Shown piece after piece: positions 16,161 through 59,133 of a stretch of 64,000 bases of DNA (position 1 is the first letter of the stretch; every line of letters begins with the position of its first letter). The notes below the pieces were generated by a model. It had not been told where the DNA came from. It searched no databases and saw nothing but the letters and a program-made list of their open reading frames with translations. This stretch comes from Pilasporangium apinafurcum. Lineage: Eukaryota > Oomycota > Peronosporomycetes > Pythiales > Pythiaceae. The position numbers were made by a program, and so were the translations under genes. The stretch spans positions 193,670-257,669 of the forward strand of contig BCKE01000054.1 of NCBI GenBank assembly GCA_001600495.1. The letters run 5' to 3'.

Positions 16161-16225
16161 NNNNNNNNNNNNNNNNNNNNNNNNNNNNNNNNNNNNNNNN
16201 NNNNNNNNNNNNNNNNNNNNNNNNN
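16161..16225. other. assembly gap of 65 N
   Basis: This is a run of N just upstream of the secreted-protein start. Single Ns occur on both sides, so local base quality is low and frames here should be read with caution. Confidence 0.99.
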
Positions 16226-23199: not shown

Positions 23200-23490
23200 G
23201 AAAAGAAGATGCACTCCATAGATCTTATGAGATACCGAAATATTGGTAACTCTGGAAAGATCTTCTGTCAATGTTGTTTGGGTTCGATTGGATTACTTAA
23301 GACTAGACAACCGCGAAGTAGACATCTCTGATATGTGGAGTCGATGAATAAGTGGTGATTTTTGAGGAGAAAACAATGTTTCTACGAGCATTGACATCTT
23401 TATCAAGCACAAAGTTGCAAGTGAGGACACTTTTCAAACTTTCTTCTACCAGACATTTTATAAGGAGTGTTGGTAGAGCCAGACTGATGA
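23200..23490 (-). pseudogene. Fanzor (TnpB-like nuclease) C-terminal remnant, copy D
   Basis: The minus strand encodes CNFVLDKDVNARRNIVF (about 23433-23383), the second half of a TnpB/Fanzor zinc ribbon joined to the RuvC-III motif D-x-N-x-x-R-N. A Cys-Pro-His stretch just before it is in a frame offset by one base. A short divergent C-terminus leads into non-coding DNA homologous to copies B, C and E (ACCCAAACAACAT, then the hairpin). No RuvC-I or RuvC-II region is visible, so this is a broken 3' fragment. The catalytic Asp position (D in DKDVN) is kept. Confidence 0.75.
23220..23263 (-). ncRNA. conserved Fanzor 3' hairpin, copy D (candidate guide-scaffold RNA)
   Basis: In the sense (minus) orientation the outer stem is AGATCTT/AAGATCT, then GAG/CTC, a T-T mismatch and TACC/GGTA closing the loop. 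Position and architecture match copies B, C and E while stem sequences differ. Expression as a Fanzor guide RNA is inferred from where TnpB/Fanzor RNAs usually arise, the 3' end of the element. Confidence 0.55.
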
Positions 23491-24116
23491 AGAATGGACA
23501 GTATCAGGTGGATTCGGCAGTACAGTATAAAAAACTGCAGCGTTTTTTTTTCCTATCCGTCGTCCACACGTGCATACATGTGGGTGTGTCACACTTGCTC
23601 TTATGAAAAACGGCTCATCTGATTGGTCCCCATAGTGACATTATTTCACCCAATCACAACGCCAGGTGGGTTTCCACCACCAAACCGACCATAGTTTCAT
23701 CTAGTCAACTCGTTTTTCTTTCGAAACCCTTCGCCCCACAATATCGACCACATAATTTACGTTTGCAAACAAGTAATTTACATGTAATTTACTTTGAAGG
23801 ATTTGATGCGAAAATTAAAACTAGTATGCGAAATCAGATGCTCAACTTCTTGCTGGACGAACGACAGGGGTCATGTGTGCGACATGTGTCCTGTGAGGAC
23901 GTGTAGGGTGTAAATTCCCGACCATTCTGTAGTTTACTTTGTAAATTACGGCTTCACCAATTTTGGTTTGATTCAGAAAAGAAATGTTTTCCGGAGCGCG
24001 TCTAGACCAGCTAAGTTACAGGAAACAGCGACCGTCACTCGTGGAGAAAAGTGAGGGAAAGAAGAAGGCAAGCGAAGACACAAGGAGCAACTTCTAAGTA
24101 TACAAGAAAAACAACG
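23491..24116. other. intergenic, promoter of the PX-kinase gene
   Basis: Contains the 5' flank of Fanzor copy D, heavily decayed, and the promoter of the plus-strand kinase. A repeated TAATTTAC word occurs around 23755-23790. No gene is supported. Confidence 0.45.
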
Positions 24117-26304
24117 ATGGCCACGCTGAGTGTGGTAGTCAGTGGCTACGGGGTCGCTCGCGATGCCCACCACAATGAGTGTGCGGTACGTTATGCTTGT
24201 GGCAGTTGAAAATGCTTTGATAATGGCAGCCACCAACAGATCATTTCTTTGCATCTTTGGTCGGTTCGTATGGCTCTGTGAATAGCGACTAATATCCTTG
24301 CGAATGTGCCAGGTATTTTTTGTGACGGTGCAGCAGGGTGGATGCAACAGCTGGACAGTGTATCGCCAATATGATAGTTTCCAGCGACTCAGCTCCCAGG
24401 TACGTTGTGGTGCAATACGATGTCACATGTGCGAGTTGCACGATATCGAGCGGATTAAATGATCTATATGGAATTGTTTGTTGGTGTTGATTCAGTTGAT
24501 GATGACTTTTGGTGGCGCGGTGCCGCCGTGTCCGATGACACTATGTGACGTGCGGTTCCCTGACAATTTGGAGAAAGCACGTGTGGAGCTGTCGATGTGG
24601 ATCATGCAATTGCTGCAGCACCCACCACTCTACCAATCGCATGCGTTCATCGACTTCGTGAGTGCCGATGCAAATGTAAGTTGATTGGTGGTGTTGTGTC
24701 TGATCACTAGCGAACTCGTGGTTCTCACTTGCATTTTGTGTAAATACCTGTCTGTAGATGCCACCACCTGGTTTGCAACAGAATGCTGGACATCCTGGTC
24801 GAAACATTGGCGAATTGGATGTAAGTCGCCTTGACAAATTGCGATTGGCAATGCAAAAAAAAATGGATTGCAGAATGCAGAAAGAGTGGTGGAGTCTAAT
24901 CTGCAATGGTGTTTTTGTACAATTTTCATCAGATGGATGAAATGTTCGACTCATCAACCGACGATCGCACGCACGATGATGATGATGTAAGCAAATGCAG
25001 CCCGTAGAACGGACAACCTCGTTACCGCTATCTTGATAGCAGGAGCAGTAGCAGCTCACACATAGCATGTTTGCTTGATGATGTTGCAGATGTTTAGCTT
25101 TGACTACAACACGGATCTCTCCGGCGGCCAGCTGAACAGCCACCAGCATCAGTTGCAACAACAGCCGCCAGCATTGCCACCCAAGAAGGAGAAAGTGGAA
25201 CTGGATGATTTCCAGATGATCAAAGTTATTGGTAAAGGTAGCTTTGGCAAAGTGTTGTTGGTTCGCAAGCGTGACACGGGCTTGATCTACGCCATGAAGG
25301 TCCTACGCAAGGAAAACATTATCAAACGGAACCAAGTTGAGCATACCCGTACGGAACGGCATGTGCTTGGGTACGTGCGTCATCCGTTTATTGTGGGACT
25401 GAATTATGCGTTCCAGACGTCCGAGAAGCTCTATTTTGTGCTGGATTACTGTGCCGGTGGGGAGTTATTTTTCCACTTGGGCAAGGTTCAGCGCTTTCCC
25501 GAACACCGTGCACGCTTTTACGCAGCTGAGATCACGTTGGCAATTGAATACGTGCACAATTTGGACGTCATCTATCGTGACCTCAAGCCCGAGAACGTGT
25601 TGCTGGATGAAAATGGCCACATTCGGTTGACCGACTTTGGATTATCGAAAGAGGGTATTCAAGACGATTTCTCCGGCGCAAATTCGTTCTGCGGAACGCC
25701 AGAATATCTGGCACCGGAGATCTTGAATCGTTCGGGCCATGGACGAGCAGTGGATTGGTGGTCGCTTGGTGCGTTGTTGTACGAAATGCTAACAGGACTA
25801 CCGCCATTCTATTGCAGAGACCGCGATAAATTGTTTGAAAAGATCCGTAAGGGTGACCTCACGTTCCCGAAATATCTGTCTCCACATGCCAAGGACTTGC
25901 TCACGAGATTGCTAGAACGTGACCCAACGAAGCGATTAGGAACAGGTCCAGATGATGCTGGTGAAATCAAGAACCATCCGTTCTTTGCTGAGATTCAATG
26001 GGATGCTCTGGCAACGGGTCAGGTACCTCCACCATGGCGGCCAACGTTCTCAGGAGCTTTGGATACGTCTCAGTTCGACCGCGAGTTTACCGAAATGCCG
26101 ATTGTGAGCCCAGATAACCACGTACGCGGCGTGGCCATGACCCGACGACCTGCGAATGCAGGCGGCATCTATGGCAGTTTGACAAATGCAGGAGATTTGT
26201 TCAAGGGCTTCACGTATACGGAAGACTCGTATTTACAGGATGGATTGCCGCAATTTGGTAATCGATATGTCGGAAACACAAGGATGCCACAAACAAATGT
26301 ATAA
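24117..26304 (+). CDS. PX-domain AGC protein kinase (SGK3/CISK-like architecture), six exons
   Basis: Exons: 24117-24185, 24313-24399, 24496-24675, 24758-24820, 24933-24986 and 25090-26304, giving 555 residues. Every intron is phase 0. Exons 1-3 encode a compact PX domain (SVVVSGYGVARDA, WTVYRQYDSFQRL, AFIDFVSAD), a module that binds phosphoinositides, usually PI3P. After an acidic and Gln-rich linker comes the AGC kinase: GKGSFGKV at about 197, YAMKVLRKE, YRDLKPENVLLDE, TDFGLSKEG and a T-loop with SFCGTPEYLAPE. The C-tail has a hydrophobic motif FKGFTY near 522. Endosomal recruitment through PX and T-loop plus hydrophobic-motif phosphorylation are inferred from SGK3. The frame beginning at 25075 alone would miss the PX domain. 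Confidence 0.9.
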
Positions 26305-26681
26305 AGTGCATCACCAACACGGAATGAAGAGACAATACTAAGGATGCAGGGACTAACGACCTATTGCTACTACAACCGCCAATCATTCGCTACTTGGAGG
26401 CGGACTTAGCAGTTCAAAAGGTGGAGGGTGAAGACAGATGATAAGCGAGACAACAAGAAGAGGGTTAATGTGGAGTTTGTAAGATCGTGGGGAGTCCAGG
26501 AGATGGGGGAGTTGTAGTAGTAGCAACCTACAGTAGTGGTGCCGACGTGGCCGTCATTTTGGGTTTGGGCTTTTTAATTGTATAATTTGGAGGTTTTGTA
26601 TTCTCACGCAACACATGAGAAAATAAATTTTTTGGTTTAGCCGCTCGTAGACATCAACGTCACTACCTAGTAAAAATGTCT
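26305..26681. other. convergent 3' region
   Basis: This stretch lies between the stops of the PX-kinase and the minus-strand membrane protein. It contains AATAAATT at about 26622, usable as a poly(A) signal, and nothing else recognised. Confidence 0.5.
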
Positions 26682-27749
26682 TTAGTCGTTTTTTTTGTCA
26701 GGCGCTTCCGCTGTAATAGCATCCGTCATTGTAGTGGTAGTAACTATGGTGGTAGTCGTTTTCTTAATGCGTGTGTGTCTCGGTGTATTTGGTTTACTTG
26801 AAACAGGGATCGGTGGAGGCATTCGTGACGTGTAAATGACGACCACACCCATGGCAATGAGCGTTACGCCGCCAATCAGTAGCCATATCGTCACGTCTGA
26901 CCGCTTTTCCAGACGTCGCTGCATTTCTTTCGCGAGGAATTCCTTTGATTGTTGGATCGTCAGCCGTATGTTGCGTGATCCATTGGCATCGAGCTCCCAG
27001 GCATACACTATCGAAAATTTGTGTTCTACAAATCAACCAAACATAAGAAGTGTTCAGTAATAACATTGGACTAACCTCAACTATGTCTATGTGTTTGCTT
27101 TAAACGTACCACGGCTGTCGATCACCATTTCGACCTCATACGACACAGTCAATGGTTCCTCTGGTCGCTTGTATGAACTAGTGCCAGTGTTGGCCGTCTT
27201 GTCTAGAGGATCGCGCATCGCCTGGAGCACCAGCACCAAACGATCATCTTCGCCTGGTTTCTTGTATTTATTATGCCGTCGCGTCTTTTCTGGGTCTTTC
27301 TCACTGAAACTTGTGAATGTGTACCCTTTCGCATACCCATGCCGCTGAATTTCCTGAAAAGCCTTCTTGGAGATCTCAATCGTAAACGCAAACTGTGGGT
27401 CATGTGCCTGGATATCAGCCAGCTTCTCTTGTTTCCACTGCGCTTCTGGTTCTTTAGTCACAGTTGTTTGCTGTGTCTGTTGTTGTTCAACCAGTCTTTC
27501 AAATTCTTCAACCGAAATTTCCTGTTCTTCGCCGTTGGCTTTGGTGATTGTCATCCGTTGCGTCTTGTCTAAGTTCATCAAACCTTCGACATCGTTGTGT
27601 TCCGCAGCTATTACAAGTGTAAAGAGATTACAGAAAATAAACAAGAAGCATGTGGCCAACAGAACGCGCCGCGGCAAGATAAGAGCAAATGTATCTCCGC
27701 GCATGCTGGATGTGGGAGAAGTGCTTTGATTTTCCCTCCCGAATCTCAA
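26682..27749 (-). CDS. type I single-pass membrane protein, function unknown
   Basis: Two exons (27749-27110 and 27025-26682; donor GTACGT, acceptor TAG) give 327 residues. An N-terminal hydrophobic signal (VLLATCFLFIFCNLFTLVIA) is followed by a roughly 200-residue luminal domain with a coiled Gln/Glu segment and a beta-rich part (FAFTIEISKKAFQEI, LTVSYEVEMVIDSR, IVYAWELDANGSR). One transmembrane helix follows (VTIWLLIGGVTLIAMGVVVI), then a Thr-rich, basic cytosolic tail. The start may instead be the ATG at 27704 (MRGDTFALI), closer to the signal core. I do not recognise the family; an ER or secretory-pathway membrane protein is the plain reading. Confidence 0.75.
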
Positions 27750-28980
27750 AACAATGCCACGTCATTTTTCCATTGGGACAAATCGCCATTACCTCTATAA
27801 GATGGACAGAAAGCGAAATGTACCTTATAAGAAGGTTTTTTAGGACATGTTTTGATCCTATCGTACTTTAGTGGGATCACTATAGTGAACATCGTGTGTC
27901 ATGAAGTTGAGGGCTAGCTTGAAAGTTAGTGGCTACATTCTGTGGGAGCTTTAGAAGCATCTCCTATCATCCGTGCTCATCAATCACGAAAGGACTGTTG
28001 ATCGAATGTATGTATCATCGTCGTCATTCACTTCCCACACAACGGCCCATGTCTCGATTTGTGAAGCTTTGTCGCTAGTCGCCGTGGTCTTTTTTGGTTC
28101 TAGTGAAAGTTTGATGATGGTGGTCAAGAGTACGCCACTCACAAAGCCTCAGAGATGCAGTGGTCATTTCGGTGTTGGTATGGCTCTAGTTCCATGACAA
28201 GAAGTTTGATGTATCGAAACCACCGTCGATGTACGCACTCATATGGCTTGCGTGTCGCCATACCGAATGTCTCCACATGGCATACGATGCCAAGGACATT
28301 TTCATATGTCTGATAAAATAAAAGAATGGTTTTGCGTCATTCACTGGGGGGTATAATGACGGCATCGTCAAGATCCATCTGATACCTCGTTCGTAGTTCT
28401 CTAAACTTCTAGAAATGGTCGCGGAAATTAGTAGCGGGCACCCTTCGCTCGCAGCTTTAACTTCATCCTTGTCCTCAAATATACCTGGCATCCGAGCAGT
28501 GCAAGTCGATGTTTCAGTGTCCGCCCATATCTCACAATAAGCCGCACCTTTCGATCGATGACATCCACAAAGACGACAGTGCGAAGTCACCAATAGCAAC
28601 ATCATTTAACCTTTTTTCTCCAAGTGTACTACCGGAAGTACATCCTCTTTTACAGTGTAAGTTAGTTTCTACTGGATTTAGCAACGAGCACTCTACTTGG
28701 CATAAAAGAGTAGATTCTGAGGATTCTTTCGCTATTTCATTTTCTGCAGGGCAACAAATAGTTATGACGATATTGGCATGTGGAGATTGTAAGGTAGGTG
28801 GGCAATTGGAAAGTGATCGTGTTTCTGGTTTTAACTACCTACTGATTATCCATTTGTAAACAGCTATGTATTCTTATTGCTAAGCATTCCTTTTACAACT
28901 ATCCTGAACCTTCTACCAATTTAACTTGATGGTCTAGAGGTCTATCTGTTTTTGAAACGTTAATAGTGTTCTGATCAAAT

Positions 28981-29511
28981 GTGCGCTTCTGGAACCTACC
29001 TTCTCGCACTATGCTTGCAACTCTCGTTCGCGACAGTGATTATTTCGAAAAGCACCAAGACAAGATGATCAAGAGTGCTGTTTCACTGCTGGTCCGTGTA
29101 AGCACCCAAACTCAGTATAGCTTACTCGGCCAGATACTCGCGTGTGGAAAAACAAGTTTCAAAGCTCAGCTAAAGGCAACATTAATGTTCCCACAACGAC
29201 CCTACAGAAGAAAATTGGTTTTAGATGTCGTGTTGCTGATGTGGACGAGCAAGCTGTGTTGTGCTTGTTAGAAGAAGATGAAGGGGTTCGTCCTTGACGG
29301 AAAAGTTGTCAGTGNCAGTCTTTATGGTGTGCGACACTGCAAAAATAGTGAATGCCATCGCACATTGTGGGACCATGACATCAACGCTGCAATCAACATT
29401 TTGAAACTCTTCATCGACCAAGTGAAGAAAAAGAAGAGACTCGAGGCATTCACAAGGAAAAAGAATGAGTTGGTACTCGAAATCAAAAACTGAGGTGATA
29501 AACGACCTCAC
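28981..29511 (+). pseudogene. Fanzor (TnpB-like RNA-guided nuclease), copy A, broken
   Basis: The C-terminal half is recognisable. One frame reads VPTTTLQKKIGFRCRVADVDE (about 29190-29250). A small deletion or frameshift then moves to TSKLCCAC, an in-frame TAG (29269-29271) follows, and the frame continues to VRHCKNSECHRTLWDHDINA with AINILKLF. This is the standard TnpB/Fanzor order: SKLC-x2-C, C-x4-C zinc ribbon, then the RuvC-III motif D-x-N-x-A-x-N. One N lies at about 29315. No intact RuvC-I or II motif is visible upstream. It differs from copies B-E in sequence and 3' flank. The stop codon sits in a small hairpin (TGAGGT/ACCTCA). Confidence 0.8.
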
Positions 29512-29538
29512 TGCTATGATTCCGGAAACGGATGAGTA

Positions 29539-29602
29539 TAACCTTTATTCCCCATGTGTTCTGTACCGCGCATAATACAAAACACGTGGAGAATAAAGGT
29601 TA
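29539..29602. repeat. 64-bp imperfect palindrome at the right end of the Fanzor A element
   Basis: Arms TAACCTTTATTC and GAATAAAGGTTA are perfect over 12 bp and pair on with two mismatches for another 10 bp, with TGTACCGCG near the centre. The right arm is also the element's terminal repeat. Related palindromes occur at 28606-28650, 29815-29860 and 59723-59782. Confidence 0.75.
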
Positions 29603-29725
29603 AGTGTCGACGATGCTCTGAGAAAGACAAGTAATAAATTTTCCGCGTCCTGATCAATCATTTCGCTGGCACATTCTGGGAAACCTCCACACGAACTCTA
29701 TGAGAGTCTCTTTTCTGCTCATAAT

Positions 29726-30476
29726 CAATGGATACAAACAAGACGAGTAAGAAGAAGATGTTACAAACCACGTCTCTTCTTGCACAAATCGCTAAATGAT
29801 TGTGAAAGATTATTTAGTCCCATTTGTACCACCAGTGGTACAAATAGGAAGTAAAAGTTATAAAGCACTGCCACAAAATCTTTCTGTTCTACAAACATGT
29901 CGATTGATAACCATTGCTGCGTGCAGTTTTTTGTTATTACGATGATTGAACGATTGAATGCCATTTACTGACGATGGTGAACTTGTTTTTCGATCTTGCC
30001 AAGAGCAACTGCGATTCTCTCGTCGTCACCTTGAAGTTTTTTATTCGCTGCATTTATAGAAAAGCAGATCTTCTTCGTTCATCGTCACATTCATCCATTT
30101 ATTCATCGTGATTCATCATTGTAGTAGCAGGAAGCTAAAATGCCGTCAAGGTCGTCCATAAAGACTACAATGCTTGATGTAGATCGTTTCTCAACTATCC
30201 GAGTCTTAATATGAGCCATCTGAAGCTCAATAGCAAACTCACGCCACCTATCGCTCATTATTGATCAGCAGAGAGCTGCCATGATATCATTCGTTTGGCC
30301 ACAGCAACGAAAAATCAAAATTTGTCACCGTTTGCGTGATCGCCATCATCAGAACCATTCTCTCGGACGGATCCGTCTAAGTACGAGTGACCATTCCATC
30401 AAATGATACATGATATTCTTCGTTCTACGCTTGGTTTCAGTGGCTTCATTCAGAATTCGGATAAGTTGAGGGTAAG
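29726..30476. other. promoter region of the first intact lipase
   Basis: Apart from the palindrome near 29830, short blocks around 30000-30050 resemble the region upstream of the second lipase (for example CACCTTGAAGT), so the tandem duplication included upstream DNA. No other gene was recognised. Confidence 0.5.
29815..29860. repeat. palindromic repeat related to the Fanzor A ends
   Basis: A core with arms ATTTGTACCAC/GTGGTACAAAT (29822-29845), flanked by TTAGTCCC on the left and AGTAAAAGTTA on the right. It resembles the palindrome at 59723-59782 (GTGGTACAAGTGGGG). It may be a solitary miniature element. Confidence 0.6.
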
Positions 30477-32157
30477 ATGCATGAAATCACGACCACCAAG
30501 TATCCTGTCGTGTTCATCCATGGTAAGTGACCATCAAGGTCGTCTCAACTGTTAACGAGAACTGATGCGTAACGTTTATGTATCTATGCTGCATGCAGGT
30601 GCGTTTGGATATGGTAAACAGCGACCGTTGTGGAACTACTCGCCTCCCTATTGGCCCGAGAAGCAGTTGAACCAGCTCAATCCAAACCACATTATTGTTG
30701 ACGTGGGTTTTGTTTCTTCAGATCACGACCGCGCCTGTGAAATCTTTTATCAATTACTCAGTGGCACTGTTGATTATGGCGAACAGCATGCAGAAGCATG
30801 TGGACATAGCCGCTTTGGTACGCATTTCCCAAATGGCAAGCACGAAAAATGGGGAGAAACGCACCCAGTGCACTTGGTGGGCCATTCACTTGGCGCAACG
30901 ACTGCTATTGAGCTTTATCAGTTGCTCTGTTCGGATTTCTTTGGTGTAAGGACAAGTCATAAATGGGTGAGATCCATTACGTGCATCGCTGGGCCACTTA
31001 CAGGGTCGACGCTGCCCTATTTGGTGGGGCTCCATCACAGCCTGCCAATGCGTCGAGGAACAATCTTTCATATCATGTGTATTGCATTGGTGGTCTGGTT
31101 GAAACTCGCTCATTATTTTCCGCGGCTGAATCACATCTTGGCACTACGCATGCCGCAATGGGAACATCTATCTGCTCGCAAGCTTATGTCTGTGACTGGA
31201 CCAGTCAATACGTCAAAGGATTCGGGGATGTACAACATGATCCCGGCAACACGCATTCGCAAAAACGCGATGCTACAGCATATGGACCGCGTGCATTTGC
31301 TCAGTATCACGACTTCTCACAGGACTGCACATGTTCCTACTCGCGAGGTTTTGTCGCTGGTGATTATAGTGCTACTTGGCATCAGCAAGGTCCCACGATG
31401 GTGGCGGAAAGTGCCCCATTGGCAAAGCATCAGGACTGCAGTGATTACTGCGCTCTTGGTGTCGCTCTGGTCCAAAGTGAAGGAGCTGGACGTGTCGAAA
31501 TTGCCGTCGATGTATGCGCTCATGTGGCTTATGCGGCGACGTGTGAAGAGTCTTGATATGATTTATGATGGTATGGCTGTTATTGCTCATCTGTTTTGGT
31601 TCGACGAGTTTGGTCATTTGTAACTTCGGTATGCGTTTGTGGTAGGATTCGAAGCTAGTCATTGGGAGCACAACGATGGTGCCGTCAATATTCATTCAAT
31701 GCTTCGCCCTTGGTTCCCGAAGCCGCAAGAGATGACCGCTGAGATTAGTAGCGACCAATCACTACCGTTAGCGTCCACACCATCTTTAGCATCGGCTTTA
31801 TCCGACATACCAACAGTTCAAATTGGAACCGAAACTCTCTTGTCGCGAAACGAGTCGTACATCTCGATCGATGAGTTCCACAAGGAGGATGGTGGTGATA
31901 CAACCACAATGAAATCAAGTCGGTCATTTGAGAAGGGCAAATGGTACGTGTTTCGTGTTCCTAGCAACCACTTGGCAGGTACGTACTGGGACAGTAATGC
32001 CCACAATCTCTACAAGAGCCTCTTTACGCTGCTGGCCAGTGAATACGAGCAGGAGGACCAAGAAATGGAGGGAGAACAAGAAGGCGAGAGGAAGATGATG
32101 ACAACGGTAGTGAAGAAGAAGGATCAATTCAATACTGCACCAGCCTCTTCTGGGTGA
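30477..32157 (+). CDS. alpha/beta-hydrolase lipase resembling bacterial family I.5, tandem copy 1
   Basis: Exons 30477-30522, 30599-31570 and 31646-32157 give 509 residues. The fold is close to thermostable Bacillus/staphylococcal (family I.5) lipases: oxyanion segment VVFIHGAFGYG, SSDHDRACE, GTVDYGEQHAEACGH with SRFG, and the nucleophile elbow GHSLG (Ser112). The candidate acid region is HNDGAVNIHSM and the His segment SNHLAGTYWDSNAHNLY. Asp59, His79 and His85 match the spacing of the zinc ligands known in that family. There is no signal peptide, so the enzyme is probably intracellular. It presumably hydrolyses acylglycerols. It pairs with the next gene: exon 2 is 972 nt in both and the intron positions are the same. 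Confidence 0.88.
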
Positions 32158-32673: not shown

Positions 32674-34352
32674 ATGGAAGTGTCTACAACCACCAAGTAT
32701 CCCGTCGTGTTCATCCATGGTAAAGTCATCAGTTGTGAAATCTGTATAGTCGAAAACAACTTGAATATGCATTTCTTTGATGGAATTAGGTGTGTTTGGT
32801 CATGGTAAGCAGGGGCCGTTGTGGAATCATTGGGTACCCTACTGGCCGGAGAAGCACCTGAACGAACTTAATCCCAACCATATCATCGTTGACATTGGCG
32901 TTGTCTCCTCTGATCACGATCGCGCCTGTGAAGCGTTTTACCAATTGCTTGGCGGAACAGTTGACTATGGTGAGATTCATGCCCAGGAAACTGGCCACAT
33001 GCGGTTTGGAGCCCGATTTGCAAAGGGTTTGCATGAGCAATGGAGCGAAACAAATCCTGTGCACTTAGTGGGTCATTCACTTGGTGCAACGACTGCCATT
33101 GAGTTGTATCAGTTGCTCTGTGTGAACTTTTTTGGTGTCGGGACGAATTCGAAATGGGTGAAATCTATCACGTGCATTGCAGGACCACTCACAGGAACGA
33201 CACTTCCGTACTTGGTGGGGTTGGACCACGGCCAGCGCATGCGTCGAGGCACCATCGCCCACATTTTAAATATGGGCTTGGTGCTCTGGGCGAAGTTGTA
33301 TCTCTGTTTCCCGTGGCTAAAAGGCGCATGGGACTTGCGCATGCCGCAATGGGAACATCGATCCACGCGAGAGCTCATGTCCGTGACGGGACCGGTCAAT
33401 ACATCAATGGACACTGCCATGTATGGCGTATTGCCTGCGCGAAGGATTCAACGTAATTTAGCGCTGATGTACATGGATCGTGTGCATCTGCTCAGTATCA
33501 CGACATCCCCAAAGACTATTCATGTTCCGGTGCAGGAAATGTTGTCGCTGGCAGTTGTGATGTTGCTTGGAATTGGTAGATTTCCTCGATGGTGGCCAAA
33601 ACTCGCGCGATGGCGTGGTTCGAGAGCGATGGTGATCACAGCGCTACTGGTGTCGCTTTGGTTCAAAGTTAAGAAGTTGGATGTGTCAAAATTACCATCG
33701 ATGTATGGGCTCATGTGGTTCATGCGTCGACGAGCCAAGAGTCTCCCAATGATATTTGATGGTAACGAGCATATAACGTGAGTTAGCATGTTTTTGGTGA
33801 CTGATCCTTTGCATTGTAGGTTTTGATGCGGGTAATTGGGAGCATAATGACGGCGCTGTCAATATCCGCTCCATGCTTCGGCCATGGTTTCCCAAGCCTC
33901 AAGAAATGGCCGCAGAAACCAGCAACGATCAGAGCTGCGCTCCACCACATTCTACATCAACAACATCGCTACAATCTGCCTTGTCAGATGTACCAACGGT
34001 AGAAATTCCAGTGGCACCACTAACTTCTTCATTACCACGGACGGGATCACATATTTCCATCGATGGATTTCACAAAACCGACAATCCAGCAGACGCAAAT
34101 ATCGCTCTACAGGAGCAGCGGCGCTTCGAGAAAGGACAATGGTACGTTTACCGAGTGCCGAGTAATCACTTGGCTGGCACATACTGGGATAGCAACGCCC
34201 ATGACCTCTACAAGAGCATCTTCACGCTTATGGTCAACGAGTACGAACAGAAAGAAGGAGGAGAAGGGAAGAGAGAAGATGTGGATGAGACCACAAAGAC
34301 TCATCATCATCATCAACCTCTACACCTTCCCGCTCGAGCTACGTTTGGATGA
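32674..34352 (+). CDS. alpha/beta-hydrolase lipase resembling bacterial family I.5, tandem copy 2
   Basis: Exons 32674-32719, 32790-33761 and 33820-34352 give 516 residues. Motifs parallel copy 1: VVFIHGVFGHG, SSDHDRACEAFYQLL, GTVDYGEIHAQETGH with MRFG, VHLVGHSLGATT (nucleophile Ser), WEHNDGAVNIRSM and SNHLAGTYWDSNAHDLY. Exon borders coincide with copy 1, although the intron sequences differ. The C-terminus after the catalytic His is a variable, charged, His-rich tail. No signal peptide. Both copies are open and keep all catalytic motifs, so both are probably active; divergence is concentrated in the linker between the acid and His segments. Confidence 0.88.
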
Positions 34353-34680
34353 ATGTAATCCATGCATAGCAAATGAATAATAACAAATACATCTATAATG
34401 AAAATGTTGGATAGAATACATGACTTCGAAATTGTGGATATTGAGGTATTGTCATAAATGGCTACACTTTAGAGGACAACAGAATCTCTCACAAACGCTT
34501 AAGCATATCAAAGAAGGAAAGAGGTGGGTGGGAGAGAGATGAGATTGTTTTACATATGTAGAAGTCTGAGGGTTCATGCAACCTTTTAACGCTGCCATTT
34601 TTCTTCAAAGATATGTCGCTGATCTTGAAGTGTTAGTTCGTTAGGTTCGCAAAATACACCGACTTTTCCCATCACCCCAT
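34353..34680. other. intergenic spacer
   Basis: Between the second lipase and Fanzor copy B; a 3' untranslated region and nothing else recognised. Confidence 0.5.
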
Positions 34681-34718
34681 AGATCTTCTGAGATACAAAA
34701 GTAACTCAGGGAAGACCT
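34681..34718 (-). ncRNA. conserved Fanzor 3' hairpin, copy B (candidate guide-scaffold RNA)
   Basis: In the sense (minus) orientation AGGTCTTC pairs with GAAGATCT (one G-U), then TGAG/CTCA, a T-T mismatch and TAC/GTA closing a TTTT loop. It begins about 40 nt after the stop codon, following GTTGAGTCGGACCC. A smaller hairpin ACTAG/CTAGT overlaps the stop codon itself. Confidence 0.6.
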
Positions 34719-35253
34719 TTTGCTATGTTGTTTGGGTCCGACTCAACTAGCAAAAACTAGTCAAGACTAAACAATAGCGGAGTAGCCATCTCCAACACCA
34801 GGACTCGATGAGTCCAGGAGAATAGGTGCTCATTCTTGAGAAAGATGTTTCTAGCAGTGTTGACATCTCTATCAAGGACGAACTTGCAGTGAGAACCGTC
34901 GAAGACTTTCTGGTGCTTCATCGCGCGGTTGATTCGCGCGCACTTAATGTCATGCCATGAAGGTCGTACAAAGTCACAAACTATGGACTCCGGGATCGAT
35001 TGCGCACGTTCGAATGGGGTCCGTCTGCTTGAATTCTTGTACTCAAGGAATGCAGAGATAGTAGGGATCTTTTCGAGTTCTCGGTAAACAAGCTGCATAC
35101 TCGAATGCCCTCATTCTTAGAGAACCCGCTGAATTCGGCCATGTACGCATCGACTAGATGATGCACATGAGTGCGAAAGAATCCATGCATGATGTCCAAA
35201 GCATTCCCAAGGGTAACTTGTAGGTCAAGATTTACTGATGCGACCAACTTCAA
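34681..35253 (-). pseudogene. Fanzor remnant, copy B, internally deleted
   Basis: The minus strand gives an N-terminal part (NLDLQVTLGNALDIMHGFF, HVHHLVDAYMAEFSGFSK). A frameshift near 35100 moves to QLVYRELEKIPTISAFLEY, and a jump leads straight to the C-terminus: HQKVFDGSHCKFVLDRDVN, then TARNIFLKN. The first zinc-ribbon Cys pair and the RuvC-I/II core are missing, so the middle has been deleted. The RuvC-III Asp is kept (DRDVN). Coding ends at TAG 34757-34759. The last roughly 130 bp and the 3' flank are nearly identical to copy C, so these two diverged recently compared with D and E. Confidence 0.8.
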
Positions 35254-49907: not shown

Positions 49908-52900
49908 ATGAGCGCGCGACGACGAAGGAGTCTGGACGATGCGGAGGGAGAATATGAAGAAGAAGACGAAGAAGAACATCATCGTCAGCATCATCATCAT
50001 CGCCAGTCGTTTGATCTAGACGAGCAGGACCTTTCTCAAGAATTAACGGGCGGCAGATTCTTCGAACGGGCATTTTCATCGTTGGCTCCATCTGGTGATG
50101 GTCCGGCTGCGCGATCGAATGCAAATCGGCTCTTGGAAGCGCTTGAGGTGCTTTCGCAGGATGCAGCGAACGGTGGAGAGGGTGGCGACGATATTCCTCA
50201 TACTTTACGCGGACTGTTGGGACAACTACATAGCGTTGGTGGTGACGGAGCGGTAAGGTTTGCTTTCTTGCTTATTCTCCAGAAGGGTAGAAATGAGGTT
50301 GTTTATTTTTTTGCTCATGTGCGTTACTGTTGTATATCTTACAGATGTTGAATGGATTGTTTCCGTTGGCACAATTGTTCGAAGGTGCGACAGGCAGCCC
50401 GCGGTTCCACCGGATTCTAGATTCTATTAAACTACAGGCTCCTCCACATGTGCAAATGGTGTGTAGAATGAAACGAATCTTGGTTTTGCCTTTTAGTCTT
50501 CCAGTCTTGGTGGTCTAACACGGTCACATGTGTGGATACGTTGTTTTTTATTGTTTATGAAGTCTGGCTTATCGGAGCTTTGCGAAACGCTATCGCTATC
50601 TACAGAAGAAGTATTAGTCGTATCTGGCTTCAGTGTGGACGCATTTGTTGCAGCAATTGCAGCGCTTATCCGCACGCCACCGACGATGGATGTGCTATTA
50701 CTGGCGGCACGCGCATTATCATCCATTTTGGAGCTGTTCCCAGCAAATGCTACGCCGAAAGCGATTGCCGAAGGCGTGGTGCCATCTCTTTGTGCGAAGC
50801 TGTTGGAGATTGAATATATGGACGTTGCCGAACTTGCGTTACAGATACTGGAGCGACTAGTCAATGGAGAAAATGGTCTAACGCCCACAGAGCGAGATCT
50901 ACTGTCATCGTCCTCAAGTTCTACTGCCACCACAGCGCAAATACATGCAGATGCGCGTCTTGCTATACTTCAGGAGAACGGTATTGTAGCAATTCTCCAG
51001 TTCGTGGATTTTTTCCCGTTAGAAATTCAGCGGACTGCAGCTCGGATTGTTGCCCAAGTATGTACCAACTACCCATTGTCCATGGCGGCAAAATTGCAGA
51101 ACGCATTACCGCTGATCATAGCGCTGCTACATTCATTTGATGGTGAGATTTTGCAGAGTGGCTATGAGTGTCTTTGCAAGCTCAGCGAAAGCAGAGCTTT
51201 TTCAGAGAATGCATCGTTTGCCGCACGCATTGCGACAGACAGTATCTGTGATTTAGTGCTTCAGAAGCTGACCGATTACGGATGTCAAGGCAATGCCGCT
51301 ACTGGTAGTAATGCGCAGGTGCCATCTTCAGCTTATGCAAACATGTTACGCTTCCTGTCGTGCGTTCTTTCATTGCCCGTTGGGACACGTCATGGTCGGA
51401 CTGCAGTATCTTTCTTGGTGGAGCGATTGCGCTTTGTTGGACTTCCTCCAATTGTGACAATGTTGTTGGCCAAGCACGAAGTAATCAGAGATAAGCAATT
51501 TTTACGGGAGACGCTCAAAATGATTATTGTTTTGCTCCCTATCACTGAAGAACTCGCTTCAATGGAAAACATTCCGCTTCCAATGCTGACGTTTGCACAC
51601 GAGTTACTGCCGTTGATCATTTGTGTCTATGATACAACGTCGCGAAGCGACTTGCGATATGATTGCTTGGGGGTTATTTCCCGTAGTTGTTCAATTATAT
51701 ACTCCAAGCAGCAGCATCCCTTTACGACAGATGAATATAAGGAGTTGTCGCGTCTGGCAGCATTTCTCTCTCGAGTTTTGCGTCCGAAGCAAGTGTCACA
51801 CTCTAACGCAAGAGCCAAGGGTGATAGACGAGAAGAAGATTTGTTTTCTGTTCACCTCGCCCTTCAAATTGTCGAAGTATCGTTACTGTACGCTGGTTCT
51901 CGGAATGTGGCACAGAATTTATTCGAACGTCACGATGTAGCAAGTGCGATTCGTTTTTACGCCTCTTATTTCAACCAAAACAATGAGTCTACGGTGCCAT
52001 CCGACGATATAAATTTTGAAACGGACAACTATGATGTTTGTGCCATGTCGGCACGACTTGTCACCGATTATCTGGGTGTTAAAAGGACTGAAACTAGTGT
52101 TGTAAAGCAGCTTCAGGGTATTGCCAAAGAACTGCAACAACTCATAGACGAAGATGCACATCTTCAAACAGAGTCTATCCAACATGTATTGGAAAAGTTA
52201 GGCACGCTTAATGGTGTTGGGGACAGTGAAATTATGACAGCTCACGAAATTGCGTGCAGCGGTCTTGTGAAGATCCTTCTTCGAATTTGTGTATTAAGCG
52301 AAGGTCGAAGAGCATTCACACAGGCGCTTTCGTCAAGACGGAATGGAAGTGATCAAACCACCAGTATTGGATCTATACTGGTTCATTGCTTGCAAGATGC
52401 AATTTCGTCAGAAAAAGATACATTTTCAATCGAAAATGGGTTGCCATCTTTACCAATTGCTTGGTTTGAGTCTGGAGGTGTTGCAAATGATTTGGACCAA
52501 TTGACTCAGCACATTAAAATTCGAGTTCTGATTGAAGATTGTACTTCAAGTAGCGTGAGTGAAGGAAAGTCTTCCACTCAGCACGTATCGAGCAGGGAGC
52601 CGCGAATCCATGAAGATGGATACGAAAAACGGGAAGAGGCAGGGATCCTTCAGAAGCATTTGCTCAGAAGAAGTGATGGTCGCGAGAGTAGCTCTTATCA
52701 CAGACGGAATCGTCGTGGAGTACATGACACAGTCGTGTTAGTGGAACCTTTGGCTCGAATTGAAACGATGGAAGAGTTTATTGCCGATAAATTATTTGGT
52801 GGAAAGAGCACTTCGTCTCTCATCGACGATTTGGCAGAAGCGGGCCGAACTGAGGACGAATACGAGTGCAAACGCGGAGATAACGAAACTGGGGAAAACG

Positions 52901-55755
52901 AGAAAAAACTACGAGCTTTGTACAAAGGGCATCTGCTACCAGCTGATTCGAGTATCTTAGAAGCTATCGTCAAATTTGGTGCTGAGGATGAAGATAATAG
53001 TGAGAAGATGAACGATGAAGGAGCGTCTTCCTTTCCTTCCACTCTCGGTGCTGTGAATGGCATTTGGAGAAGTACCCCACATGAAATCACCTTCCGCATT
53101 GTCACCTCGAAGGTAACTGCGACTTCACCTTCACTCGATACAAATGAAGTGATTGGGAATGTTGCGCAGAACGATACTTTGAAGATATTGGAAGACAAGA
53201 CAGTATCTCGCTCTGAACAGTGGTGGGATGATGTATGGGATCTCTTACGATTACTGAAATATGTGCACGAATTTTTGGTCTCTGGCTCGCAGGCGCAACA
53301 TGGCTTCCACCAGACTATCAACTTTGTCAACAACTTTTTATGTCTCCAGATAAATCGAGCATTGCAACAGCCAATTAAGGTAGTCGCAAATTGTTTGCCA
53401 GAATGGTGTTTTCGAATTGTGAACGAATTTCCTTTCGTCTTGGATTTCGACACGAGATACAACTTTGTATATGCAACCATGTGTGGTACACCTCGTGCAA
53501 TCCAGTATTTGTGTGGCTCGGTGTGGAAGAAAGCAGTTCTAGAAGAAAACACTGTTTTACCTGGACCGTCTAGTGCACGACAAAATAATACTCGTCGGCG
53601 ATCGAGAGACGTTGGGACTAACCGATCACGTACTTCCGCGCTTGTAAATATATCAAGAATGGTGAAACTACCGCGATTGAAAGTACGAGTATCTCGTTCT
53701 CGTTTGCTCCAGTCAGCCATGAAGCTTTTTGCAATCTATGGCGGGAAGAAGGCTGTAATCGAAATTGAGTTTCTTGGAGAAGTGGGCACCGGACTAGGGC
53801 CAACAACGGAGTTTTTTACTCTAATTTGTGAAGAGATTCAGTCCAAGAAGTTGAAAATGTGGAGAGACGAAGGTCGTGATGTAACTGGCAACCTCAAAGA
53901 CGAGGAAAAACACATTTCTACCTCTGAAAATGGAAAAGTGTCGTCATCCCTGCCTATACGAGGATATCATCGTGTTGCTATTTATCACTGTATTGGATGC
54001 AAACGTGTTCGCATACCGCACTGTTCAGTTCATCGGCAGCTTTTGACCCACGAAAAGAAGAGTATACGGGTTGAAAAATCTGCCGCAGTTAATACTACAC
54101 AAACTACTGAGAATACAGAAAACCAAGTAAATCATACTACTCGCTCTTGCAAGGCTATGGAATCTATTCCACAATGCGCGGAATGTATGGATGATTGCGA
54201 TTTATTCTCGTCCTATACTATGTGTGATTGTGGTCATACCAATGGGAAACCCGATAGTACAGCTTCAAACAATTTAAGATGGTGGATTGTTAGTGATGAA
54301 GAAATCCAATACCTCGCCAAGGTATTTCCCCGACGATCGGTGAGTGTGAAGCATCCCGTACTTCAATGTGCTCATTGCGATACAGTGAACTTTCCTGGTA
54401 CCGATGCCGGCATCGTGGAAGTGGATGGAGATAGAATGATTTCACGTTCTGGACGCCGAATGTACGAACGGGACTATCGAGCAGTGACCAAGCATGTGTC
54501 ACCGTTGTGTGAAGGAACACCATTAACTCAAATTACGTCTATTCTCACACGGGAACTGGTGGATTTATTTGTGGATATGCTGCCGCGTAGCCCAGAAGTA
54601 CCGGAGTCTGAAGTGGAGGCATTGAACTATTTGAGCGAATCTTCATCGATTTTTGGTTCTAGTATCGGGGGACCTCCCGTGGAAGCTCCATTTGGGCTAT
54701 ATCCAAAGCCGTACGTTCCTACGGACAAAACGTTGATGACCTCAAATGTGAAGGCAGAGGTGGTACTTTCTGAAACCAGCATTAGTGACATGGATGTTCT
54801 CGGATGGTTTAACTTTTTGGGCCGCTTCATCGGTCAGGCATTATTGGACGAGCGATTGCTGAATCTGCCATTCTCACGCCCGTTCCTGCGTGCGTTGCGG
54901 GGAGAAAAAATGGTAGGACCGGATGTGGATGTGGCAAGATCGCTGGATATTGTAGAAGAATTTGATCCGGCCATCGCTAACTCGCTTCGTTATCTGAATG
55001 AGCTCGCCAAAAAATACCTCAATGCTGACGCTACCGCAACCAGTCCAGAAGATGTGCAAGCATGGGAGGAGGAAGTCAACGCCATGTGTTTGTATTTCAC
55101 ATTAGTAGGGGATTCTGATATCGAACTGTTGCCTGATGGCTCATCAGTGCAAGTGACGTTGGATTCGTTGTCCTCATATGTGACCAAGAATCTCGAGTTA
55201 TTATTGGATACCTCTATTGCGAGCCAAGTTGAAGCATTCCAGCAAGGCTTTGAAAAAATTATTGGTACGTCTTGCCATGAACAAGCAAAGCACAAGAAAC
55301 AGCATTTCCTGCATGTCTTTGAACTGAATGAGCTGGAACGCCTGTTTAGCGATCATAGTTTGGGCAGTAGTATGTGGGACCGTGAAGGGCAAGAGCTACG
55401 CGAGCACATGGTGTGCGATCATGGCTATACTGCTGAGAGCAAGGCGATTGCCGATCTCATTGCCATCTTGTGTGAGCTGACCTTGGAGGAGCAGCGATTA
55501 TTTGTACGCTTCGTCACTGGTGCCAGCCGTCTACCGCTTGGCGGTCTTGCCAAGTTGGATCCAAAGCTCACCGTTGTGCGTAAGTTGACCGACACTTCGT
55601 CGGCATCGTCGACGGAGGAGGGGGATGCCGTGCTCCCGTCGGCGTCTACGTGCACGAATTACCTGAAACTGCCAGATTATTCGACACGTGCGATCATGAA
55701 GGAGCGGCTACTGTATTGCATGCACGAAGGCCAAGGGAGCTTCCATCTCTCGTAA
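49908..55755 (+). CDS. HECT E3 ubiquitin ligase, TRIP12/UFD4/UPL3-like, with Cys-rich insertion
   Basis: Exons 49908-50252, 50345-50458 and 50563-55755 give 1883 residues. The acidic/His-rich N-terminus leads into a long armadillo-like helical region (HRILDSIKLQAPPHVQM, SGLSELCETLSL, ALSSILELFPANATPKAI), typical of TRIP12/UPL3. The HECT domain begins near 1202 (MKLFAIYGGKKAVIEIEFLG, EVGTGLGPTTEFFTL) and resumes with DVLGWFNFLGRFIGQALLDE. The catalytic Cys is about residue 1850 in STCTNYLKLPDYS and the protein ends GQGSFHLS. Between the halves of the N-lobe (about 1296-1430) sits a Cys/His-rich insert (CIGC, HCSVH, CAEC, CDCGH, CAHC) that probably binds zinc. It should ubiquitinate proteins, perhaps ubiquitin-fusion-type substrates. 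Confidence 0.9.
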
Positions 55756-56718
55756 AAAAGGCGCAGAGATTGATGGTAGATGATGAGAATCAAAGGGATC
55801 AGGTATGCTGTTTAGTAGGTTTGTCAATGGTCCCACCCTTGTTCGTCACTTTGTGGCACATGTCAACAATCAACATTCTTGTGTGTTTGGTAGAAGAGGA
55901 AGATGTTCGATATTCTTCTGAGTGTATCGCATGACCTTTACATATAAACTCTCTGGTGGGAGTGCTCACTACTTTACGGAATAACGATACTTGAACCGTC
56001 TGGAAAATCCACTCTGACGCTTTACGGTTTGCATGAATGACGTCAACACGATGGATGTGAGGTTGGCACAAACATGAAAGAAAGTAAATGGAGATTATAT
56101 CAAGGCGGTGTTGAAATGGAGAACAAAACTGAGTGACTTAAAGCACTCTTCTTGCTGGGTAGAATGTATTGGTTTCATTTTCATGTTCCCTGAATGGTTT
56201 TGGCCCTTGCGATCGGACCAAAATGGTATGCTCATTTATACCATCTACCCTCAAGACTACACTACACACACATACTCTAGGCATCATCCCCTTCGGGGCT
56301 ATCTCTTCTTCTTCTTCTTCCCACCCACAACGGATAAATAACAACAACAGACGCCGCCCAGGAAGAGCTCCGGAAAAATCCCACGGCCCCTTTTCACGCT
56401 ACGGAGATCTATCCCCTCGATCTCCATGGCCACCACAGATTAACAAGTGGAAGGACCTTGGGGGGAGGAGAGCAATATAGCCACTCCACCCAAAAGTCAC
56501 GGATTGCAGTGGATGAATGAGGAAGCGAATTCTTGTAGAGCTCCCTCCCTCAGCCCTGAGTCCTCCCACTGTCATGATGACCAGCGTATAAAGCCCAAAA
56601 ACCTGTTGTATGATTCAGTCTTTGAGGACTCTTCCCTGTGCTCTCTCGCTCTTCCTGGTTGGCTGCTTTAAAAGACAGCCAGCGCAGCTTTCATTTTTGG
56701 ATCCGCTGAAGTCGTCAC
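55756..56718. other. convergent intergenic region
   Basis: Between the HECT ligase stop and the stop of the minus-strand acidic protein. A TTC repeat lies near 56305-56325. No gene, RNA or transposon signature was seen. Confidence 0.45.
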
Positions 56719-57180
56719 CTAAAACTGTTGACGCATTTGGTGAAATTCCTCCATCGAGTACCAGACGCGACGCTTGTAGTCAGCATCGAAACTCGATCGT
56801 GATGGGATCTCAACGATGTTGATGTCGTCGTCAAAGCTGATGCGGCGGTCATGGCTGCAAGTGCGCAATCGTTCCGTGTCGTCTTCATCATCGTCATCAT
56901 CATCCATGTCATCTTCGACATCTGTGCCTTCCCAGCTGTCCACTGTGGATGCACGTTCACGCCATTTGAGGCCCTTGGGTTTTGCTAACGAGTTGTATCG
57001 ACTGTCGTAGTTACTGTTCGTCAAAGTGTTTTTTTTGGATGGTTTCCCCTGTGTAGCGATGAGCATCCAATTGTCATCTTCGCTGTCAGTCTCTTCCAAA
57101 TCGCTAAGTTCAGGGGCGCCTGCACCATCATGGCGGAAGTATTCGCGCACATTTACCACACTCTTGGTTCGCGGACGCAT
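56719..57180 (-). CDS. small acidic hypothetical protein
   Basis: A 153-residue intronless frame starting MRPRTKSVVNVREYF. It contains two acidic stretches (LSDLEETDSEDDNW and DVEDDMDDDDDDEDD) and a C-terminal block RRISFDDDINIVEIPSR ending YKRRVWYSMEEFHQMRQQF. The Ile-Ser-Phe preceded by basic residues, with acidic residues after it, could be a phosphatase-1 docking (RVxF-like) motif, which is a guess. I do not recognise the family; the ordered C-terminus argues that it is a real gene. Confidence 0.6.
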   Translation of the reverse strand: MRPRTKSVVNVREYFRHDGAGAPELSDLEETDSEDDNWMLIATQGKPSKKNTLTNSNYDSRYNSLAKPKGLKWRERASTVDSWEGTDVEDDMDDDDDDEDDTERLRTCSHDRRISFDDDINIVEIPSRSSFDADYKRRVWYSMEEFHQMRQQF

Positions 57181-58130
57181 ATTACTCTTTGCTTTGCTTT
57201 TTTTTGTGGTTTTTTTTGTGGCTATTCAGGAGATTTTCGGAGAGTTCAGAAAGAAGTAGCGCTTTCGGACTGTTTTGGATTATTAGACTGTCACAAGCGT
57301 CTCTCCCCTAGCAATACTTTCCGGAAATGAGGTGAGGTGGTTGGAGAGTCAACAGCATGGGGGACCAAAAACACCCCTGTCACGATGCGACGACGCACAA
57401 CGCGTGGACAAGGCAGAGCAGACGAGGCGACGACAAACACCGGCTGGTGCTCCGACGAACCTGCTGTTTTTGTTTTAGGCCCTACACCTAGACGGTGGGA
57501 CTACTACGGAGTGGCCAAGAGCCAGTGAGGAACTGGCGAGAACGTTCGACATAGAACGATGGAAGAGGTACAAAAACAGGGTAAGAGCGACGGTTGGTCC
57601 ATGCAAAGAAAAGGAAAGATCGAAAGGATCCACACAAACGCATGTCGACATTGCAAGGTGTGGGCCGCAACCATTCATTACCCTACACCTTGTAAATGGT
57701 AGGGCTCAAAATGTGGCGTGTAAGGTTCGGAATGTCGTGGTTGCTTCATGTGGGGAAATGCATTACTTGGTATTGCTCTCACGCGTCAGTGTATTTTGTA
57801 CCTTGGTGGTTTTCCTTTTTGTGATTGGAGGTAGATCAGTGAACGGGAAAACAATAAAACGTATGTCTACTAATGTTTGGATGCGTTCAAGAACGCATCA
57901 ACGACTATCGTTTGGTAGAGGTTTGAGGAAAGTGGTGAGGAAACCTACTGTAGAATTCTGGCCAACCATTGGTTGAAAAAAAATCATCGCTTTTGTACCG
58001 ATGCACTTTTATAAGGATGAGGTATAGGCTTGGGAGGAAGCTCGTTTTTCTTCCTGGCAGCAATAAATATTTCGGACGCAAACGAAATTGGGTGCTGTTG
58101 ACCAATGTTTGGAATTTACACCTTACCTTT
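57181..58130. other. intergenic, no supported gene
   Basis: Upstream of the acidic protein. Frames at 57337-57528 and 57713-57976 have no signature. It may include decayed 5' sequence of the Fanzor E tail (for example a Cys-x2-Cys stretch at about 57645), but the evidence is too weak to call. Confidence 0.4.
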
Positions 58131-58180
58131 GGAGATCATATGAGACATCAATAGATGCCGGCAACTCAGAGAGGATCTCC
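58131..58180 (-). ncRNA. conserved Fanzor 3' hairpin, copy E (candidate guide-scaffold RNA)
   Basis: In the sense orientation GGAGATC pairs with GATCTCC, then TGAG/CTCA, a T-T mismatch and an apical CATC/GATG stem with loop TATT. The outer and apical stems differ in sequence from copies B, C and D yet still pair. Confidence 0.55.
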
Positions 58181-58290
58181 TTTTTTTTTCCTTTTTTCCT
58201 TTTTCTTTGGGTCCGACTCAACCAGCAAAAGCTAAGACTAGAGAACCATGAAATAGACATCTCCCCCAAAGTGTATCCTATCGATAGGAG
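58131..58290 (-). pseudogene. Fanzor 3' end remnant, copy E
   Basis: Only the tail survives. The minus-strand sense sequence GAGATGTCTATTTCATGG and TTGCTGGTTGAGTCGGACCC align with the end of the coding region and stop-proximal flank of copies B and C. An A/G-rich insertion and the conserved hairpin follow. The coding part upstream is not recognisable. Confidence 0.65.
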
Positions 58291-59095
58291 AAATGGGGGA
58301 TAGAGGCTGAGTAAATAATATTGGACGACGTCGTTCTCTGCGCTATTTCATTTTTATCGCATTATTTTTATCGCATACCCAAGTCCGTTGTTCATTGGTG
58401 AGAACTCGTATTTAGGTGTCAATCAACGATTCGTTTGGTTGTACAGATTACACACCTTCCATTTTGTTGGACGGCACGCCTAGCGCACGTTTTTGCCTCT
58501 TTTTGCCGGCAGTTTATGTTGCGAGGCTAATGCGACGAGAACACAACACCCGGTTGGATTTTTGCATTCTCGTTACGTTGAGACGTTTTGGGATTTTCCC
58601 ACCGCAGCCGGTATAATTGATGCTAGTTGGTATTTCATCGTCATAATAGAATAGCAAAGGGATGAAGGAGAGAGCGGAATAAGGACGTAGCTCTGTTTGG
58701 TTGGCATCATCGTGAAAGACGGACCTGGGGGATTTTGCCTTGAAAATGGTGGGCGTTGTTTTGCGAAATGGATTTGAGACACTAGAAAAAAAAGGTGCAT
58801 AGCTCCTTTCATGTGTCCAATTTATGCGGATGTTTTTAGTTCATGGGTGAAAAAGATGGCGTCTCGAACCCTAATGAGAGTAGAAGAAAATGATTTCCTC
58901 ATCGCAGAGTGGAGAGCACCCATCGACTGACGCCACGTAAAGTTGGCGTGAATATTTTGCTCTCCATAATCGCTCGAAGCGAGTAATCATAAGTGCGTGA
59001 TAAGTATCCATTTTTCTTTCGAACACTGTTCCTGATGGCTCGTTATATACCATGTTTTGTTATGCGCATGGTTTATTTATCCCAGGGCACTCCAC
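58291..59095. other. intergenic, no supported gene
   Basis: Spacer between Fanzor copies E and C. Short frames only; no RNA gene or repeat was recognised. Confidence 0.45.
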
Positions 59096-59133
59096 AGATC
59101 TTCTGAGATACAAAAGTAACTCAGGGAAGACCT
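59096..59133 (-). ncRNA. conserved Fanzor 3' hairpin, copy C (candidate guide-scaffold RNA)
   Basis: The sequence is the same as in copy B across the hairpin (AGGTCTTC/GAAGATCT, TGAG/CTCA, TAC/GTA with loop TTTT), again about 40 nt after the stop codon. Confidence 0.6.

Follow-up and report, generated by a model that had tools for sequence, protein, structure and literature searches.

We analysed a 64-kb window of the Pilasporangium apinafurcum genome (contig BCKE01000054.1, positions 193,670 to 257,669), the window being the whole stretch of DNA under study, and describe in it the decayed copies of a TnpB/Fanzor-type element together with a hairpin, P3, that stands near their right (3') end. 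All hairpin copies studied come from this window, and all positions refer to it. Five copies, B to F, are present. Three of them (B, C and D) combine a TnpB/Fanzor-type coding remnant with a hairpin at a constant distance from the stop codon and share a common 3' boundary; the hairpins are homologous, F is a copy additional to the four known before, and pairing is moderately conserved across the set. The hairpins of B, C, D and E, which are given below with their scores under R1, a covariance model built from these four copies, lie with the coding strand on the minus strand.

34681-34718, minus strand: copy B, hairpin P3; fold -14.8 kcal/mol, z -4.07; 59.6 bits with R1 (in training set)
59096-59133, minus strand: copy C, hairpin P3, identical to that of B; 59.6 bits with R1 (in training set)
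23220-23263, minus strand: copy D, hairpin P3; z -4.65; 63.3 bits with R1 (in training set)
58131-58180, minus strand: copy E, hairpin P3; z -1.79; 55.3 bits with R1 (in training set); no Fanzor frame seen

In copy B the hairpin consists of an outer stem of eight pairs, an inner stem of four pairs, a T-T mismatch and an apical stem of three pairs, a plan that D and E follow with losses. The bare hairpins of B and D fold far better than shuffled sequences, and that of E is not remarkable by energy, 11 of 200 shuffles being equally good. When ranked by energy among 11,555 windows of 44 nucleotides (nt) from the same DNA, B stands at 0.9%, C at 0.8%, D at 2.7% and E at 31%, the hairpin of E being longer than the ranking window. 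An earlier reading of this DNA, made by a model from the letters alone (hereafter the sequence-only reading), had placed the four hairpins at these positions, which we confirm for the coding strand, and had given all of them one and the same spacing from the end of coding. The latter holds for B, C and D, where 38, 38 and 39 nt separate the stop codon from the hairpin, but not for E, which has no coding frame. Copies B and C share 96.7% identity across 271 columns and B and D 68% across 237, while the match of B with E (75% over 76 columns, expectation value (E-value) 4.9e-7) ends before the hairpin of E. Copy E thus comprises a homologous untranslated stretch and a hairpin, with no reading frame seen. 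The coding remnants and the corresponding stretch of E are as follows.

34757-34945, minus strand: copy B, TnpB/Fanzor-type C-terminal coding remnant with stop codon; PF07282 at 21.5 and 23.7 bits, cut-off 26.3
59172-59396, minus strand: copy C, coding remnant of 74 residues covering the zinc-ribbon/RuvC-III region; PF07282 at 38.2 bits, cut-off 26.3
23303-23428, minus strand: copy D, coding remnant (VLDKDVNARRNI...); PF07282 at 13 bits, below the cut-off
58194-58264, minus strand: copy E, homologous counterpart of the 3' untranslated region and final codons of B and C; 75% over 76 columns

Judged from its sequence, the coding remnant is of TnpB/Fanzor type. The TNB zinc-ribbon/RuvC-III domain (PF07282) passes its cut-off of 26.3 bits in C only, B and D scoring below it. 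The top NCBIfam match of the 74-residue frame of C is IS607_TnpB, at 25.8 bits against a full-length cut-off of 350, a score far under the cut-off, as a fragment would be expected to give, and among 15 matches in a PDB search the mimivirus TnpB-like protein L79 ranks first (E-value 7e-4). The published Fanzor/TnpB motif reads D-x(125,275)-[TS][TS]xx-C4 finger-x(5,50)-RD (PMC3627910); of its finger and RD residues, the broken copy C retains CxxC with a single other C and has RN instead of RD, while B has RD and D has KD. A six-frame search of the window for a D[RK][DNE]xN-type motif yielded three places, all of them in the broken copies B, C and D. Only short C-terminal pieces are left, too short to separate Fanzor1, Fanzor2 and TnpB, and we take the family to be Fanzor rather than TnpB because its setting is eukaryotic. 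Copy B also carries a DPGV motif, RuvC-I-like by eye, near its zinc-ribbon end (34943-35010), whereas in C other coding precedes that end; the position of DPGV next to the zinc-ribbon end suggests an internal deletion in B.

The right ends of the three copies with coding are defined by the following octamers, each of which could pair with the last codons in a closing stem, P1, around P3 and a second hairpin, P2.

34673-34680, minus strand: copy B, right-end octamer and predicted 3' arm of P1; 5' arm at 34777-34784, inside the last codons and overlapping P2 at its foot; P1 present in the minimum-free-energy fold
59088-59095, minus strand: copy C, right-end octamer and predicted 3' arm of P1; 5' arm at 59192-59199; fold of 59088-59205 z -4.15
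23212-23219, minus strand: copy D, right-end octamer and possible 3' arm of P1; 5' arm at 23313-23320; P1 in the 114-nt minimum-free-energy fold, not in the 179-nt one

Similarity between B, C and D terminates at 34673, 59088 and 23212, which is 8 nt past the hairpin, and the flanks beyond these points differ from each other. A single terminus common to three insertions indicates that the octamer, RTGGRGTG, marks the right (3') end of the element. With up to three mismatches allowed, this motif has nine matches in the window against 14.9 expected, and each of the three perfect matches coincides with the right end of B, C or D. The next two nucleotides are AT in B, CC in C and CA in D; they are TA in E, whose end is uncertain. 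Taken as putative guides, the first 11 flanking nucleotides of B, C, D and E have no second match within the window, and a short BLAST of the right ends against the upstream flanks gave matches of 7-13 nt only, with E-values of 1.2 or worse. A sequence near D and E, TTTACACCYTAC, has 12 matches against 6.3 expected, a number reached by 2 of 100 shuffles.

A structured segment thus lies between stop codon and right end in all three copies with coding, and P3 folds in each of them. Our preferred reading, to which we give a probability of about 0.58, is that P3 is the scaffold of a guide RNA, standing at the right end of the elements of a decayed Fanzor-type family. If an intact copy were transcribed across the end of its nuclease gene, the resulting RNA would begin within or close to the last codons, fold into P2 and P3 and perhaps close via P1, formed by the last codons and the right-end octamer. 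In this omegaRNA P3, located where the element ends on the right, would be the stem-loop next to the guide; the RNA would continue into flanking host DNA, and that flank would serve as guide. Bound to this RNA, the nuclease would cut matching DNA and so help the element to persist. The present copies would be relics. Transcription, protein binding, use of the flank as guide, formation of P1 and activity of any intact family member are points that we infer.

The location of P3 within 8 nt of the element end could also be that of a palindrome acting at the DNA level, recognised by a transposase in the manner of IS200/IS605 ends or the 3' hairpins of Helitrons; the segment might be transcribed, with transposition as its conserved role, and the copies that lack coding would be non-autonomous elements. 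Such hairpins are described for both Helitron1 and Helitron2, and Fanzor1 is reported to occur inside Helitrons (PMC3627910). The CTRR terminus of Helitron1 does not follow the hairpin in B, C and D, where RTGGRGTG stands instead, and no inverted left end was seen in the window. We hold this explanation to be possible but doubtful.

The guide-scaffold reading gains from a further copy, F. The search of the window with a covariance model from the four copies, which the sequence-only reading had proposed, was run with R1 without filters; it recovered the four training copies and a new match at 5719-5758 on the plus strand (40.4 bits, E-value 5.6e-8, the E-values of these covariance models being rough).

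5717-5760, plus strand: copy F, hairpin P3; 40.4 bits with R1, outside the training set; z -5.31
5626-5713, plus strand: copy F, hairpin P2, 3 nt before P3; fold of 5619-5765 z -3.73; upstream 100 nt alone z -2.46

The 55.3 bits of copy E are no independent test, because E belonged to the training set. As a control, 80 viral stretches, drawn from at least 120 that all carry the core motif, scored at most 18.4 bits with R1 under default filters. A model retrained with F returned the five copies and no sixth, the next place in the window reaching 13.1 bits, and on the opposite strand it scored four of the copies at 15.7-21.7 bits. No Fanzor frame was seen by eye in 5001-5800 around F. The hairpin thus occurs in E and F with no Fanzor coding seen, as a non-autonomous DNA element would have it. 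The sequence-only reading had named a hairpin without Fanzor coding as a finding that would speak against its proposal; the ghost loci described in part of a published account (PMC10432273) make both copies compatible with a guide scaffold, though they are no proof of it, and both would resemble such nuclease-less loci.

The second hairpin, which in B lies between the last codons and P3, gives B, C and F a pair of stem-loops, and this counts against a terminal DNA palindrome.

34722-34778, minus strand: copy B, hairpin P2; fold of P2 and P3 together (34678-34780) z -5.09; upstream 75 nt alone z -2.57

P2 folds better than shuffled sequences in B, C and F (z -2.57, -2.22 and -2.46). In the minimum-free-energy folds of B, C and D, P1 forms between TACTCCGC in the last codons (TACTTCGC in D) and the right-end octamer; if P1 is real, the modelled scaffold would measure about 110 nt and overlap about ten codons.

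Pairing appears conserved, at moderate strength, once F is included in the alignment. With five copies, 89.4% of 85 cells are paired (a value reached by 1 of 500 shuffles), two-sided changes that keep pairing occur at 3 of 17 pairs (10 of 500 shuffles), and the covariation score is reached by 1 of 500 shuffles, while structures slid by 1 to 3 columns give 31-47% paired cells and 0-2 two-sided pairs. The support from this test is moderate, since relatedness plays no part in the shuffles, B and C are all but duplicates of each other, and F itself had been picked out by the model. A hand-made alignment of P2 and P3 across four families (B, D, E and F) holds five two-sided pairs with pairing kept (p 0.004). 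Three of these are in P3, namely the two outermost pairs (GG/CC in E, AA/TT in F) and one pair further in (U-A to G-U in F); the other two are in P2, both from G-C to C-G, one in E and one in F, and RNAalifold showed the change in E even without F. A combined test of P1, P2 and P3 in B to E (p 0.002) is not relied on, because the right end of E was aligned after its pairing had been seen.

Several results weigh against the guide-scaffold reading. In the alignment of B to E, which holds three distinct hairpins, two-sided changes occur at none of the 15 homologous pairs: three pairs change on one side only, four vary only through loss of the pair and eight are invariant. The paired cells (88.9% against 87.3% in shuffles) are reached by 148 of 500 shuffles, and no measure is clearly above the shuffles. 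The covariation that the sequence-only reading had claimed among these four copies is therefore not borne out, two-sided changes appearing only with F. Its contrast of outer stems compared different registers, since GGAGATC/GATCTCC of E holds the same AGATC/GATCT core with an outward GG/CC and two mismatches further in, and the apical CATC/GATG, which it took for changed pairing, lies within an insertion in E. With F added, additional pair types remain unremarkable (61 of 500 shuffles), and P2 alone and P3 alone each give p 0.06 for two-sided pairs. P2 folds no better than shuffles in D (z +1.27) and E (z -0.73), the whole segments of these copies are equally unremarkable (z -0.97 and -0.80), and in longer segments P1 is retained in B and C, the octamer of D pairs elsewhere and E lacks P1. 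Two of the five copies, E and F, lack visible Fanzor coding; the window yielded neither a left end nor a terminal inverted repeat nor a target duplication; none of the 15 PDB matches names a Fanzor chain; and Rfam gave no match at the gathering score across the window, with three weak matches only in 34600-35000 (E-values 2.3-5.9). In the solved Fz1 structures it is the first stem-loop, of seven base pairs, that is conserved, the region beyond being variable and "not critical" (PMC11423790), whereas in the present copies conservation falls on the second hairpin, the one nearer the guide.

The strand lean of the mismatched pairs points both ways. On the coding strand, P3 has seven G-U against one C-A cell (two of the seven being a single position common to B and C), an excess that leans towards an RNA of the coding strand and that a DNA-level palindrome does not predict. 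Across the four families, P2 has no G-U against six C-A cells, which counts against an RNA; either its lean points the opposite way or those positions of P2 are unpaired. As P3 and P2 lean oppositely, this test of RNA against DNA is not decisive. That P2 is not kept in D and E suits a DNA palindrome.

Descent alone offers another account, in which the hairpin is part of an ordinary repeat family, or signals 3'-end processing of the mRNA for the nuclease, and its ancestral pairing is no longer selected. It accounts equally well for the four original copies: when the substitutions in P3 were re-placed at random, those between B and D (p 0.24) and between B and E (p 0.12) spared pairs no better than chance, and with F added 8 of 17 pairs are still invariant. 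It fits less well the pairing kept through two-sided changes after F is added, and it sits poorly with a hairpin that is retained in E and F despite the loss of coding; we consider it unlikely. The guide-scaffold reading is the best-supported one, resting on the position of P3, the common boundary, the presence of P2 beside P3 in B, C and F, the closing stem that the last codons may form and the two copies without coding. The scaffold that the sequence-only reading proposed thus stands as the favoured interpretation, but its argument from covariation among four copies fails, and moderate support from pairing comes only with F.

Relatives were sought in viral and prokaryotic contigs, and none was confirmed there. 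Pattern scans with the 74-residue piece gave 4 viral and 52 prokaryotic matches, none of which was confirmed by tblastn, and a tblastn against phages listed 98 records with E-values up to 1, the best at 50% over 46 residues (E-value 8e-6). DNA-pattern scans yielded at least 120 viral stretches and 45 further stretches, of which 165 were taken into BLAST; the copies gave short matches only against these 165, the best with an E-value of 0.001 over 23 nt in stretch L149, and no hairpin was seen by eye in L149 or L150.

Several other features lie near the copies. At 58261-58302, at the 5' edge of the homologous stretch of E, there is a strong palindrome (CCCCC...GGGGG around TCCTATCGATAGGA). At the corresponding place, in their coding end, B and C carry GGACTC/GAGTCC (34801-34815 and 59216-59230), whose base pairs cannot be matched one to one with those of the palindrome; this coding-end hairpin was dropped as a candidate conserved element, E retaining 2 of its 6 pairs and D being gapped. 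Upstream of D, a near-perfect palindrome (23771-23794, 94% complementary) with further GTAAATTA motifs nearby is perhaps another small repeat. Copy F sits between similar-looking open reading frames at 2427-4085 and 5935-7638, both on the minus strand, and copy B directly follows the second of two neighbouring sets of open reading frames with similar sequence (30556-32157 and 32765-34352), the first of which is lipase-like (Lip_C, 50.5 bits). Ten reading frames of the window were profiled, a HECT ligase, PIG-A, a C2-domain protein, a protein kinase and isocitrate dehydrogenase among them. Undetermined bases (N), in one run and singly, occur within 15607-16477 and appear as X in the listed frames.

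If the guide-scaffold reading is true, it supplies a concrete model of the scaffold of one Fanzor family, which may be an oomycete one, with a covariance model that has already recovered an unlisted copy, and a genome-wide census could reveal intact nucleases, ghost loci and candidate guides. The window holds five copies of the putative scaffold within 64 kb, two of them without coding. It is conceivable, though we think it improbable, that such loci form a dense reserve of nuclease-less guide-RNA genes whose products could be taken up in trans by a small number of intact Fanzors elsewhere; relics would in that case still provide guides against many sites. The finding would extend, and not alter, what is known of Fanzor guide RNAs.

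In the open-licence literature we found no account of the guide RNA of an oomycete Fanzor. The sequence-only reading had spoken of an undescribed oomycete Fanzor family, which is too strong, since oomycete Fanzor1 elements have been published since 2013 and the present remnants are too short for typing. The part of that survey listing oomycete Fanzors names Pythium ultimum, Phytophthora sojae, capsici and ramorum, and Albugo laibachii (Bao and Jurka 2013, PMC3627910). By description, the present family resembles the Fanzor1 elements PUl-1 and PUl-4 of Pythium ultimum in having a TnpB-like protein in a mobile element of the same host group. Mariner-type Fanzor1 elements, as described there, have TA duplications (PMC3627910), whereas no TA stands directly after B, C or D, and these copies do not show the mariner-type signature of TA duplication with terminal inverted repeats. 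Among bacterial systems, the reRNA scaffold of IS607-family TnpB is described as including the nucleotide that flanks the right end (Yoon 2023, PMC10711439), and it is the TnpB of this family that supplies the best-scoring NCBIfam model for copy C.

The closest likeness is with SpuFz1, for which the relevant part of the published account gives a 75-nt scaffold between the stop codon and the 3' repeat or right end, followed by a guide of 14-15 nt (Saito 2023, PMC10432273). The same account describes a GtFz1 RNA that overlaps 17 codons and 134 ghost loci of Spizellomyces punctatus (Spu-1) that lack the nuclease gene and keep the RNA region (PMC10432273). Terminal inverted repeats of 30 nt flank SpuFz1, whose activity has been tested, whereas no inverted repeat or intact gene was found for the present family, which is likened to it by description. 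Fz1 omegaRNAs are reported, in the part of the structural study that compares them, to measure 75-150 nt and to form two stem-loops in SpuFz1 and PpFz1 (Xu 2024, PMC11423790), and the putative scaffold here resembles those of GtFz1, SpuFz1 and PpFz1, again by description, in placing a series of stem-loops ahead of the guide. Guide RNAs from the 3' end and ghost loci are already known, and the present family is probably a further example of this system: like SpuFz1 and Spu-1, it has a candidate scaffold running from the stop codon to the right end, a variable flank next to it, and loci that have no gene.

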